Positions 1,747-5,036 of a DNA stretch of 5,036 nt are shown piece after piece. Under the pieces are notes generated by a model. The model was not told the origin of the DNA, did no database searches, and was given only the letters and a program-made list of their open reading frames with translations. The stretch's first letter is position 1; each line of letters starts with the position of its first letter. The translations under genes were made by a program, and so were the position numbers. The stretch is from Candidatus Planktophila sp. (lineage in GTDB: Bacteria; Actinomycetota; Actinomycetes; Nanopelagicales; Nanopelagicaceae), in assembly GCA_024641555.1 (NCBI GenBank), contig JAHECV010000037.1, forward strand, positions 1-5,036, written 5' to 3'.

Positions 1747-3000
1747 TTATTTCTTTCGATATCCAGCTGGGCATTTCGGCGAAACGGCTGTGATTTTCTT
1801 TGTTGTTTTGCCCTTTACGCAGGTGATTGTGGATTTACTTGGCGCCACAGTTTTTGTAGCTTGCACAGGTGCAGCCACTTCCTGCACAGGCGCTTTAAAA
1901 CTCACCGCCAACTGTGGCGATGAATAGGTAAAGCCGTAGGCACGTAAATTGATCCAATCATTTTTAGAATCATATTTGGAAGTTACGGTTGCGACTTTCT
2001 TGGTGCCATCTTGATAGGAGATTTCGACTTTGGCATAACCTGCCGCGATTGCGGGATCAATACCCCACCAATCCCGGGCGCGCGAGCCGCGAACTTTTAA
2101 CTCCATCCAGCCTTGAATTTCATTACCAAATTCATCAAAGTGCACGTTACCTACTTTGACGACGATTTGTTGGCTCGCTCGATCAAAGCGGAAATCGCTC
2201 AGACACCACCAACCATTGGTACCAAGGATCACATCGTCGGGGCGAGTCTCAGATGTTTTATTGCCAGCATCCCAGTAGACCATATTGACCGCGATATTGC
2301 GCTGGGTAGATTTGGCTTTCAATAGATTTGGTTCGCAAACTTGATCACCTGTATTTGCAGAGGGGCTATTTTCTGGAACGCCTTTCACGGTAATTAAATC
2401 TGCTGCAACGCTAACTTGTGGATCGCGCACATTTGAGAGCACCCATTTAAATTTCTTGGCAAAACCTGAGCTCTTCAAAACAAACTCGAAGTAATAACCT
2501 TCTGGAAGTGAACTTTTATCCTGATCGTAACCAGTGGTATTGATCTGCAGACTGCTCATCATCAAATGTATATAGGCATTTACCTTATTGGTGCCATCGC
2601 TATTGGTTATTCCATTTGGCAAAGTCCAGTGGGTAATCGGATGTTTTAAATCTTTAACCATTGCAGAATTTTCGATTAATTCACCTGTTGGAGATTTTAC
2701 GGTTGTCCATTCTTGGACCGCCTGTGCCGGGTTAAAATCTTCGGGTACTACATAGGTAAGCGCGCCGGCAGCTGTGCCATCGGGTTTGTAAAGGTTGATA
2801 CCTTGGATGCAATCATTAGTAATCGCCCAATCGACTTTGCAGGGAAGCCAGATTCCGTAACGAACATCGGTTAGCCCAGTCTGCTTCCACCATTTTGGTT
2901 CAGGTGGCATCGGGAAAGGATCGGCGGCGTTAGCAGGGGCGAGAGTGGTTACCGAAAGCAGAAGCGCGATCGCGATGCGAAGCGCGGAACGAGTTTTCAT
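1747..3000 (-). CDS. Secreted protein of unknown function with a two-cysteine C-terminal tail
   Basis: I do not recognise a functional family. The 417-residue product starts with a typical Sec signal peptide: basic MKTR, a hydrophobic core at about 8-20, and an Ala-Asn-Ala site at 23-25 giving probable cleavage after Ala25. The mature part is rich in Trp, Tyr, Thr and Gly/Asn/Asp turns, which suggests mostly beta structure. There are six cysteines (54, 64, 222, 266, 394, 410), an even number consistent with disulfides outside the membrane. Residues 369-390 are a Pro/Ala/Val/Lys linker with a repeated Ala-Pro-Val-Gln. Residues 391-417 form a compact basic tail (Ile-Thr-Cys-x-Lys-Gly ... Cys-Pro-x-Gly-Tyr ... 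Lys-Lys) shared with the truncated gene at the left edge. The tail may be a cell-wall or surface-attachment module, which is inference. Start ATG 3000-2998 is supported by the signal peptide beginning there. An AAGGA lies 15 bases upstream, farther than usual. No LPxTG motif or lipobox is present. Confidence 0.88.
   Translation of the reverse strand: MKTRSALRIAIALLLSVTTLAPANAADPFPMPPEPKWWKQTGLTDVRYGIWLPCKVDWAITNDCIQGINLYKPDGTAAGALTYVVPEDFNPAQAVQEWTTVKSPTGELIENSAMVKDLKHPITHWTLPNGITNSDGTNKVNAYIHLMMSSLQINTTGYDQDKSSLPEGYYFEFVLKSSGFAKKFKWVLSNVRDPQVSVAADLITVKGVPENSPSANTGDQVCEPNLLKAKSTQRNIAVNMVYWDAGNKTSETRPDDVILGTNGWWCLSDFRFDRASQQIVVKVGNVHFDEFGNEIQGWMELKVRGSRARDWWGIDPAIAAGYAKVEISYQDGTKKVATVTSKYDSKNDWINLRAYGFTYSSPQLAVSFKAPVQEVAAPVQATKTVAPSKSTITCVKGKTTKKITAVSPKCPAGYRKK
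1862..1890 (-). repeat. Short direct repeat encoding duplicated Ala-Pro-Val-Gln in the linker
   Basis: The octamer TGCACAGG occurs at 1862-1869 and again at 1883-1890, exactly 21 bases (seven codons) apart. It encodes the repeated Ala-Pro-Val-Gln in the linker before the C-terminal tail of the secreted protein. This looks like a small in-frame duplication in a flexible spacer, not a regulatory site. Confidence 0.5.
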
Positions 3001-3526: not shown

Positions 3527-3546
3527 CGCAAGCGTTAATTGTTTTT
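3523..3546 (+). terminator. Probable intrinsic terminator of the small membrane protein gene
   Basis: TTAGCG (3523-3528) pairs with CGTTAA (3533-3538) around a CAAG loop, giving a 6-pair stem with one G-U. The T-rich run TTGTTTTT (3539-3546) follows directly. The stop codon lies inside the stem. The orientation fits the + strand gene. The opposite strand has no U-tract after the stem, so it would not end lexA transcripts in the same way. A longer alternative stem pairs 3526-3536 with 3551-3560 inside the lexA tail. Confidence 0.5.
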
Positions 3547-4231
3547 AGCGAACGCTGCGCATAACCGCGGTGACTTTGCCCAAGATCTCGCAGTTATCAC
3601 CATTGATTGGTTGGAATGCGGGGTTGGCCGGAAGTAACCAGATGTGGCCGTTCTTGCGCTGGAAAGTCTTAACGGTGGCTTCGCCATCGATCATTGCGGC
3701 AACGATTTCTCCGTTGTTGCAATCTTTCTGTTCGCGAATCACAACGTAATCGCCATCGCAGATTGCGGCATCGATCATTGATTCACCGACAACTTGCAAC
3801 ATATAGAGGTTGCCCTTGCCGACGAGAGTTTCGGGCAGAGCAAAGGTCGATTCGATATTTTGTTCGGCGGTAATTGGACCACCGGCTGCAATGCGACCAA
3901 CGAGCGGAACCTGCTTGGTGGCTTCGACTTCGAGTTCGGATTTTTCACCAGGTACCAAGACCTCAAGGACCCCGCCGCGGGTTGGGTGGGCGGTGATAAA
4001 GCCTTTCTCCTGCAAGATCTCGAGCTGGTATTTAACGGATGCGGGCGAGCTCAGCCCGGCAGCGGCTGCGATTGCGCGCATTGATGGGGGAAACCCCAGA
4101 TCGTCCATGCTCGCCTTGATGACTTCGAGGATCTTGAGCTGGCGGGCGGTGAGGCCATGGGCGCCGGCGGCTGAATCGGGAAGTTCGGAGATCTTGTTAT
4201 CGGCTGATTTGGAGGCAGGTTTTTTGCTCAT
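3545..4231 (-). CDS. lexA: LexA, SOS response repressor / self-cleaving serine peptidase
   Basis: LexA represses SOS genes by binding their operators, and it cuts itself when RecA filaments form on single-stranded DNA. The 228-residue protein has a winged helix-turn-helix at about 27-90 (LTARQLKILE onward) and a C-terminal S24 peptidase domain. The cleavage bond is Ala116-Gly117 in RIAAGGP. The catalytic serine is Ser151 in VGESM and the lysine is Lys188 in ATVKTF. The spacings of 35 (cleavage site to Ser) and 37 (Ser to Lys) equal those of E. coli LexA, so it should be active. A 26-residue polar N-terminal extension is typical of actinobacterial LexA. The start ATG 4231-4229 is forced: an in-frame TAA lies two codons upstream and the next Met is inside the DNA-binding domain. 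No Shine-Dalgarno sequence precedes it. An SOS box 31 bases upstream implies autoregulation. The divergent neighbour is an SOS-type LysM gene. Confidence 0.97.
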   Translation of the reverse strand: MSKKPASKSADNKISELPDSAAGAHGLTARQLKILEVIKASMDDLGFPPSMRAIAAAAGLSSPASVKYQLEILQEKGFITAHPTRGGVLEVLVPGEKSELEVEATKQVPLVGRIAAGGPITAEQNIESTFALPETLVGKGNLYMLQVVGESMIDAAICDGDYVVIREQKDCNNGEIVAAMIDGEATVKTFQRKNGHIWLLPANPAFQPINGDNCEILGKVTAVMRSVR

Positions 4232-4318: not shown

Positions 4319-4346
4319 TTTGTTCGAACAAGCGTTCGAATACCTT
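4319..4346 (+). promoter_or_regulatory. Possible promoter of the LysM gene, overlapping its SOS box
   Basis: TACCTT (4341-4346) fits the TAnnnT pattern of a -10 element, and TTTGTT (4319-4324) is a weak -35 element 16 bases ahead. The SOS box fills the space between them, which would let LexA block polymerase directly. The -35 match is poor, so the exact hexamers are uncertain even though a promoter must lie close by. Confidence 0.3.
4324..4339. promoter_or_regulatory. SOS box (LexA operator), LysM-gene-proximal, perfect match
   Basis: TCGAAC-AAGC-GTTCGA is a perfect 6+6 palindrome matching the actinobacterial LexA operator, and the flanking T (4323) and A (4340) extend the symmetry. It lies 36 bases before the LysM start codon. 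Its left half is also part of a second palindrome, TGTTCGAACA (4321-4330). The perfect symmetry predicts tighter LexA binding here than at the lexA-proximal box. Confidence 0.95.
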
Positions 4347-4375: not shown

Positions 4376-4738
4376 ATGAGCACTGTAACCCTTATAAATC
4401 AAGGCCAATATGGCGTGTACAAGGCAGCAACCAATCCGTCCGGCGTTCGTTTAAATCGCCGTGGTCGCCTAGCCCGCACATTCGTGGTTCTCTCACTCGC
4501 TGTCGTTCTAGCCAGCGTCTTCGGTTTAAAGGCCGGGGCCGGCACAACCGATTCCGTTGGCGCCCCAACATCTTTTATTGAGGTAACCGTTGCTCCAGGT
4601 GACACCCTCTGGTCGCTAGCATCGCGCATGGCCGATGGCGCAGATGTTCGTGCGATGGTCGATGAAATTGCATCAGTTAACTCACTTCCTACCGCTGAGC
4701 TCCAAGCCGGCCAGAAGGTCCGCATCCCGCTTCGCTAA
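4376..4738 (+). CDS. SOS-regulated single-pass membrane LysM protein (YneA/ChiZ/DivS-like, probable cell division inhibitor)
   Basis: This 120-residue protein has the plan of the small SOS-induced division inhibitors found divergent to lexA in Gram-positive bacteria: B. subtilis YneA and M. tuberculosis Rv2719c (ChiZ), with C. glutamicum DivS at the same locus. Residues 1-34 are polar and end in a basic run (RLNRRGRLAR), so they should be cytoplasmic. Residues 35-53 are a membrane helix. A short linker follows, then one LysM domain at about 67-118, with VAPGDTLWSLA at the start and LQAGQKVRIP at the end. LysM binds peptidoglycan outside the membrane. No separate hydrolase domain is present. 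The strong ribosome binding site fixes ATG 4376. A perfect SOS box predicts repression by LexA and induction after DNA damage. The expected role is to delay septation while DNA is repaired, which follows from family and position, not from direct evidence. An AbrB-type gene follows after 18 bases. Confidence 0.9.
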   Translation: MSTVTLINQGQYGVYKAATNPSGVRLNRRGRLARTFVVLSLAVVLASVFGLKAGAGTTDSVGAPTSFIEVTVAPGDTLWSLASRMADGADVRAMVDEIASVNSLPTAELQAGQKVRIPLR

Positions 4739-4753
4739 AGGTGTTAGCCTTTA
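4736..4753 (+). promoter_or_regulatory. Short hairpin spanning the LysM stop codon (alternative pairing A-B)
   Basis: TAAAGG (4736-4741), which starts with the LysM stop codon TAA, pairs perfectly with CCTTTA (4748-4753) over a 6-base loop. It would hide AAAGG, the only Shine-Dalgarno-like sequence ahead of the AbrB-type gene. It cannot form together with the longer hairpin at 4744-4779, because CCTTTA is used by both. Confidence 0.5.
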
Positions 4754-4779
4754 CTTATGGCAATTAAGGTAAAGGCTAA
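4744..4779 (+). promoter_or_regulatory. Perfect 11-base inverted repeat enclosing the AbrB-type gene's start codon
   Basis: TTAGCCTTTAC (4744-4754) is exactly complementary to GTAAAGGCTAA (4769-4779). The stem extends to 13 pairs as RNA if a U-G and a U-A pair are counted. ATG 4757-4759 sits in the loop and the right arm lies in codons 5-8. No T-tract follows on either strand, so it is not an intrinsic terminator. It may be an operator for an AbrB/MazE-type autoregulator or a translational control hairpin. Confidence 0.7.
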
Positions 4780-5036
4780 GACTAATAGCAAAAGTGCGCG
4801 ACGTGGCCGTACATCCACAAGCAAGATATCTGCCAAGAATCAAGTGACGGTACCTGTAGATATATTGCGTAAAAGCGGTATAAAACAAGGGGATTTAGTG
4901 GATTTTAATATTAGCCAAGAGGGCGCAATAGAAATTACGTTGCTTAAAAAAGAGAGTGAAGGCGAGAAATTTATTCGCCTTCTTCAAGGCGCACTTAACG
5001 CAACTCTTGACCAAAACGATTTAGCCAAGTTGCGGG
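4757..5036 (+). CDS. AbrB/MazE/SpoVT-fold DNA-binding protein (partial, runs off the right edge)
   Basis: The first 93 codons are visible with no stop. Residues 1-23 form a basic, Lys/Arg/Ser-rich extension. Residues about 22-65 match the swapped-hairpin AbrB fold, with SAKNQVTVPVDILRK, then GIKQGDLVDF, then a closing beta strand (AIEITLL). Proteins with this domain are transition-state regulators, or antitoxins (MazE, VapB) that bind palindromes at their own promoter and neutralise a toxin encoded next to them. The visible part after residue 66 looks helical and could be a toxin-binding region or part of a longer regulator. ATG 4757 is the first possible start, since an in-frame TAG occupies 4745-4747. 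The gene lies 18 bases after the LysM stop and is probably co-transcribed with it from the SOS promoter. Four of its eight visible Ile codons are ATA, whereas I found none in lexA. Whether a toxin follows cannot be seen. Confidence 0.85.
   Translation, partial: MAIKVKAKTNSKSARRGRTSTSKISAKNQVTVPVDILRKSGIKQGDLVDFNISQEGAIEITLLKKESEGEKFIRLLQGALNATLDQNDLAKLR

Follow-up and report, generated by a model that had tools for sequence, protein, structure and literature searches.

A perfect 11-bp inverted repeat at the junction between a small LysM-domain protein gene (lysM) and a vapB-like antitoxin gene very probably serves as the DNA operator through which a vapBC-type toxin-antitoxin operon regulates itself, straddling what appears to be a leaderless start. 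We favor this reading, in which protein binding is predicted from sequence, because the dyad is conserved among relatives, its right arm is under codon constraint, a -10 box is predicted at its left arm, the antitoxin gene has a PIN-type partner in relatives, the arms do not covary, and dyads of some distant relatives lie upstream of the start. All positions refer to the window, i.e., the whole 5,036-base stretch of DNA that was analyzed (Table 1). An earlier note on this DNA had described the junction as a translational-coupling RNA switch and had offered a DNA operator of the AbrB-type protein as the alternative; it is this alternative that the evidence favors.

RESULTS

Table 1. Features at and around the antitoxin start in the window
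Feature	Position	Strand	Remark
lexA	3545-4231	-	LexA domains
Small LysM-domain protein gene (lysM)	4376-4738	+	Pfam PF01476; divergent from lexA
Arm A, TAAAGG	4736-4741	+	first bases are the lysM stop codon
Predicted extended -10 element, TGTTAGCCT	4742-4750	+	TANNNT is TAGCCT, 4745-4750; overlaps left half-site
Left half-site of predicted operator dyad, TTAGCCTTTAC	4744-4754		core CCTTTAC, 4748-4754
Arm B, CCTTTA	4748-4753
Spacer, 14 bases	4755-4768		contains start codon; length identical in 54/54 gapless junctions
Antitoxin start codon, predicted transcription start (leaderless mRNA)	4757-4759	+	placed from TANNNT at -12
vapB-like antitoxin gene, SpoVT/AbrB-MazE domain	4757-5036	+	continues past window end
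Right half-site, GTAAAGGCTAA	4769-4779		within antitoxin coding sequence, codons 5-8 (V K A K) minus third base of codon 8
Arm C, TAAAGG	4770-4775

Inverted repeat at the antitoxin start

The dyad TTAGCCTTTAC-N14-GTAAAGGCTAA is the sole perfect inverted repeat of at least 11 bases with a loop of 3 to 30 bases in the window. Since such a repeat also turned up in 8 of 400 sequences simulated from a Markov model of the window, the 11-bp dyad is only moderately unusual when taken by itself; judged by its conservation in relatives, the pairing of B with C is far beyond chance. The centers of the two cores, CCTTTAC and GTAAAGG, are 21 bp apart, corresponding to two helical turns. On recheck, the coordinates that had been given for the three arms, the ATG at 4757, the perfect 11-bp arms and the 14-base spacer all proved correct, and AAAGG was indeed the single match within 4730-4756 to the four Shine-Dalgarno-like words tested. 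The stretch 4720-4800 has a folding energy of -30.7 kcal/mol (z = -4.17), and none of 200 shuffles was equally stable.

Antitoxin gene, toxin partner and neighborhood

The antitoxin open reading frame (ORF) begins 18 bases after the end of lysM and carries the DNA-binding domain expected of a vapBC antitoxin, matching Pfam PF04014 (MazE/AbrB) with 25.7 bits at a cutoff of 24.7; a search of solved-structure sequences gave three matches, all of them AbrB-family regulators. The window stops at antitoxin residue 93, while the full-length match P0001 has 101 amino acids. Scanning the genome contigs for the antitoxin yielded 10 loci, and antitoxin relatives were found in 55 of 296 genomes of the order of genome G007. 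Together with the window, the 58 loci fetched made up 59 candidates. Five were left out of the junction alignment: L050 has no in-frame start codon, L103 and L104 are weak matches without the N-terminal part, and the contigs of L063 and L075 end within the site. This left 54 gapless junctions, window included.

Because a PIN-type gene, recognized by similarity to those of L002, L004 or L007, lies downstream of the antitoxin gene in 49 of the 53 relatives' junctions, we classify the operon in relatives as vapBC. Of the other four, L101 lacks such a gene, and the contigs of L089, L097 and L102 stop too soon. We scanned 10 of the downstream proteins (7 encoded in the order, 3 at distant loci), and every one matched the PIN family; the toxin gene overlaps vapB by 4 to 31 bases, counted from the first start codon found. 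By analogy with these relatives, the window, which ends within the antitoxin gene, is probably followed by a toxin gene of its own.

In contigs that extend far enough and have lysM upstream, the genes are usually arranged as lexA (reverse), lysM, vapB, vapC, nrdR and nrdJ. Overall, lysM is directly upstream in 25 of the 54 junctions and not in 28, and one contig is too short to tell; many junctions without it are divergent from an rpsL-like gene, assigned by reading the protein. We found no antitoxin relatives and no occurrence of the exact arms plus spacer in viral contigs, and no match of 4376-5036 to plasmids.

Several further observations concern this neighborhood. Between the divergent lexA and lysM genes, at 4325-4338, lies a LexA/SOS-type box, CGAACAAGCGTTCG (CGAACN4GTTCG). 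Because of its place, lysM, and vapBC through read-through, may be damage-inducible. In L050, which occupies the same place as L001, a shortened lysM runs into an antitoxin frame that lacks both start codon and dyad (about 186-846) and is followed by a PIN-like gene, an arrangement reflecting either a deletion or an assembly chimera. In L101 (about 2488-2630), the antitoxin ORF is shortened to 45 codons, no PIN-type gene was detected and both dyad arms are altered; the dyad may decay once the module is lost. Elsewhere in the window, ORF 3-239 resembles by eye the C-terminal part of ORF 1747-3000, with RAYGFT followed by a Cys/Lys/Ser/Pro-rich end.

Conservation of the dyad in the order

The dyad was present at constant spacing in the 54 gapless junctions, with conservation that is strong but not perfect as judged from the alignment. 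The left core CCTTTAC is exact in 33 of the 54 and the right core GTAAAGG in 44; both are exact in 28 and neither in 5. One or both cores thus deviate in 26 junctions (CCTTGAC in 8, CCTTTGC in 7, GTAAAGA in 9, and others), and all 11 pairs are retained in 14. Particular positions are nearly invariant, namely T-12, A-11 and C-8 (54/54 each) and T-7 and C-3 (53/54 each) on the left side, and G12 (54/54), T13 (53/54), A14 to A16 (54/54), G17 (54/54) and G18 (45/54) in the right arm.

Searching the 296 genomes of the order, we found the exact core dyad in 30, once per genome, and in 27 of these at the vapB start; the three matches elsewhere (G011, G017 and G160) are inside other reading frames. 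The reversed-pattern control matched a single genome of the 296. Allowing spacers of 6 to 36 bases gave matches in 91/296 genomes, with frequent matches in the reversed control too. Six wider-spacer stretches away from vapB, among the matches listed, lie in other reading frames, and the remaining ones away from vapB are taken as chance.

Predicted promoter and leaderless start

The first T of TAGCCT lies 12 bases before the ATG and is preceded by TGT, making the element an extended -10 type; the TG is found in 36 of 54 junctions. A TANNNT at -12, the sequence signature of leaderless genes, is present in 53 of the 54 junctions. Such a signal about 12 bp upstream of the start is frequent in Actinobacteria, according to the part of PMC3160421 that describes it. 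We also counted the pattern in 400 kb of a relative's genome, using 181 first-gene starts (genes that either are divergent or have over 60 bases to the next gene, with the first ATG, GTG or TTG of the ORF as the start). TANNNT begins at -12 in 41 of these 181, compared to 2.3 on average at each of the 38 other offsets. From the position of TANNNT, the antitoxin transcript should begin at the ATG or immediately beside it, and the gene's own mRNA should therefore be without arms A and B. As expected of a vapBC palindrome, the dyad overlaps the promoter, lying over the predicted -10 box.

At the same junctions, the sequence CRACACGCC (-35 to -27 of vapB; L061-L089 and others) starts exactly 35 bases before the ATG, in the place expected of a -35 element. 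It is present in 20 of the 28 loci without lysM directly upstream, many of them divergent from an rpsL-like gene, and absent from all 25 with lysM.

Codon constraint in the right arm

We tabulated codons in 50 genes, leaving out nine of the 59 candidates (fragments, masked, weak or without a start). Codon 5 encodes Val in 47 of the 50 genes and codon 6 encodes Lys in 48. Every one of these Val5 codons is GTA (47/47), against a background of 24% GTA among Val codons after codon 10 of the same genes, and every Lys6 codon is AAG (48/48; background, 45%); Lys8 is AAG in 41 of 45. At Lys4, just beyond the 11-bp arm, AAA (26) and AAG (21) are mixed. Strong bias also occurs outside the arm, with one conserved Ser encoded by AGY in 48/50 and one Lys by AAA in 25/26. 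The greatest deviation of all listed columns was nevertheless that of Val5 GTA (G = 134), followed by Ser (81) and Lys6 (77). The rank of Val5 and the mixture at Lys4 argue that selection in the right arm acts on nucleotides.

Dyads in distant Actinomycetota

A class-wide search matched 38 of 394 genomes, and a phylum-wide search with five distant antitoxins matched 121 of 396. We examined 51 distant AbrB-type loci, namely the subset of these matches that was fetched plus L009 and L010 from the scan of genome contigs. TTTAC-N(10-18)-GTAAA lies ahead of the domain in 15 of the 51, compared to 9 of 8,826 control stretches, and 36 have no dyad. Close-kin searches with two distant antitoxins added no further dyad locus to the set.

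With the likely start codon defined as the first ATG or GTG that is in frame and lies within or after the dyad, we placed it inside the spacer in 9 of the 15 loci, and the Val-Lys pair recurs in these nine straddling cases (in L173 as read from the DNA). In the other six the start is behind the dyad: L139, L159, L164, L165 and L167, with N14-16, and L186, whose N11 dyad may be chance. The starts of L164 and L165 are less sure, the frame being open further upstream. In L159 and L165, a TANNNT begins 12 bases before the likely start and overlaps the right arm. The dyad thus appears to keep to the promoter while the start codon shifts, which an RNA loop displaying the start codon would not explain.

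The occurrence of the dyad also followed the KxQ contact loop of the antitoxin, the variable residue of which presumably contacts DNA. The dyad accompanies 14 of 24 KNQ/KHQ antitoxins and 1 of 27 others (Fisher P = 2e-5), a comparison in which the residue class is also a phylogenetic class and in which five of the 14 (L136, L137, L139, L142 and L159) are, or equal, seeds of the second search already known to carry the dyad; without them the count is 9 of 19. Two KGQ-type AbrB antitoxins (L135 and L179) carry another dyad, GTAATAC...GTATTAC, and this may point to a further class of operator tied to the contact-loop residue.

DNA operator or RNA structure

According to the RNA switch of the earlier note, B pairs either with A, hiding the Shine-Dalgarno sequence, or with C, which leaves the start codon in the loop, and ribosomes terminating on lysM set the balance. 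Both hairpins are indeed possible in read-through RNA, the B-C stem is stable, as is the wider stretch, and lysM ends close to the ATG. The computed pairing energies, however, are -14.7 kcal/mol for B-C and -5.8 kcal/mol for A-B alone, so that the two are not near-equal alternatives, and the idea of mutually exclusive hairpins holds for its B-C half, which is real and conserved, but not for arm A. At least five contiguous matching bases of this arm were found in 5 of 54 junctions, with all six bases only in the window, and in 49 junctions the arm is absent; it is probably incidental. Nor did the compensatory changes sought in aligned relatives appear. Paired cells amounted to 88.1%, compared to 87.9% after shuffling, pairs with changes on both sides numbered 3 (2.5 in shuffles), and the covariation score was equaled or exceeded in 165 of 500 shuffles, a test of limited power as most columns hardly vary. 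Pair -2/+11 is near independence (TA 20, TG 16, CA 9, CG 8 and AA 1). Complementarity is specific to the register, falling from 88.1% at register 0 to 23 to 64% when slid by 1 to 3, but this is predicted by a DNA dyad and an RNA stem alike. Rfam gave no match at the gathering score across the window and none with an E value up to 1 within 4650-4900. Of the marks of an RNA switch looked for, then, neither conservation of both pairings, nor compensatory stem changes, nor a known RNA family (which a new one would not require) was found. Also against the switch, lysM is not directly upstream in 28 of the 54 junctions and the dyad is equally good there, with a mean of 9.3 Watson-Crick pairs of 11 beside lysM (25 loci) and 9.4 in the other 29; the start is predicted to be leaderless; and six distant relatives have the dyad upstream of the likely start codon. 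We therefore rejected the switch on covariation, arm A and genomic context, and regard it as extremely improbable.

Slightly less remote, yet still highly improbable, is a dual use, in which the dyad would serve as DNA operator for its own promoter and also, in read-through RNA from a possibly LexA-controlled lysM, as a start-codon-loop hairpin limiting VapB translation. The stable hairpin would be part of such RNA and the CGAACN4GTTCG box lies ahead of lysM, but the lack of covariation and the independence of lysM described above speak against it, and the hairpin is an automatic consequence of DNA symmetry. An RNA function of the dyad in general is argued against by the absence of covariation and by the predicted leaderless start. 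Finally, dyads serve as sites for many proteins, and the binder could in principle be some protein other than VapB. An operator of such a regulator, or a recombination or attachment site, is nonetheless most unlikely, given that 30 of the 296 genomes have a single copy of the exact core, 27 of these copies being at vapB, that the dyad accompanies vapB across differing neighborhoods and, in distant relatives, tracks the contact-loop residue of the AbrB protein, and that no direct repeats were found when looked for in 4500-5036.

DISCUSSION

Autoregulation through the dyad would work as follows. The two half-sites flank the predicted start of both transcription and translation, the left one over the -10 box and the right one in codons 5 to 8. 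Both half-sites would be occupied by VapB, probably within a VapBC complex that contains two AbrB-fold dimers, and RNA polymerase would be obstructed; once the antitoxin is degraded, the site would become free and the operon would be transcribed. Repression by VapB or VapBC is the most likely mechanism because antitoxins of the AbrB type bind inverted repeats at the start of their own genes, as in the systems covered by the relevant parts of PMC3302801 and PMC4803016.

A more speculative extension, which we consider rather unlikely, is that the right half of this one 36-bp site, when translated, fixes Val-Lys at codons 5 and 6 and so gives rise to a basic N-terminal tail (KVKAK...), probably disordered, that adjoins the AbrB fold and contacts the very DNA encoding it. 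If true, a single 36-bp stretch would be -10 box, transcription start, start codon, both half-sites and DNA-clamping peptide at once. Codon 4 lies outside the arm and its third base is free to vary, yet 47 of the 50 genes still encode Lys there, and the structure model of the antitoxin (mean pLDDT of 64, too weak for a fold search) has means of 47 and 48 per ten residues over residues 1 to 20. Conservation of Lys4 and low model confidence in this region would allow a protein-level role of a flexible N-terminal tail.

The operator reading yields a testable motif, CTTTAC-N13-16-GTAAAG, for one class of AbrB-type VapB antitoxins in Actinomycetota. It would also provide a clean case of a regulatory DNA site imposing codons and amino acids on its target gene, and it illustrates how DNA symmetry can produce, as a by-product, a stable hairpin around a start codon at a gene junction. 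A literature search at the level of titles and abstract openings found no description of this operator or of vapBC in these bacteria.

Among the closest known systems is vapBC-1 of Haemophilus influenzae, which also combines a SpoVT/AbrB-type VapB with VapC (here VapC as known from relatives). As described in the sections of PMC3302801 that deal with binding, the footprint of the VapBC complex covers an inverted repeat located no more than 50 bases from the vapB ATG, binding is weaker when one half of the repeat is altered and lost when both are, and VapB alone does not bind. The footprints in H. influenzae are located ahead of the ATG, where they overlap a Fis site, whereas in our case the start codon of a gene predicted to be leaderless falls inside the dyad, the right half of which is coding. 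More generally, the targets of antitoxins are usually palindromes overlapping the promoter, as stated in the review's treatment of the subject (PMC4803016). The same source describes in E. coli mazEF an alternating palindrome, a promoter operator whose middle arm is complementary to either flanking arm. The window resembles it in the AbrB-type antitoxin, the operator in a (here predicted) promoter and the A-B-C layout of arms, but arm A is not conserved, so that the alternating layout is limited to the window sequence, and the toxin of the relatives is PIN rather than MazF. In region I of Kis/Kid (parD), the antitoxin Kis binds a perfect palindrome over the -10 region, and the toxin acts as corepressor (PMC4803016). 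The overlap with a (here predicted) -10 region is shared, whereas the toxin family differs and the review's passage on the Kis site mentions no extension into the antitoxin coding sequence. With the leaderless TANNNT genes of Actinobacteria, the antitoxin gene shares a TANNNT about 12 bases before the start codon; the subject of that study, as far as its relevant part goes, is initiation signals and not operators (PMC3160421). Autoregulation by antitoxins is thus known as such, and what appears unusual here is an operator centered on a leaderless start, the in-frame right half of which would fix Val-Lys in most members of the order.
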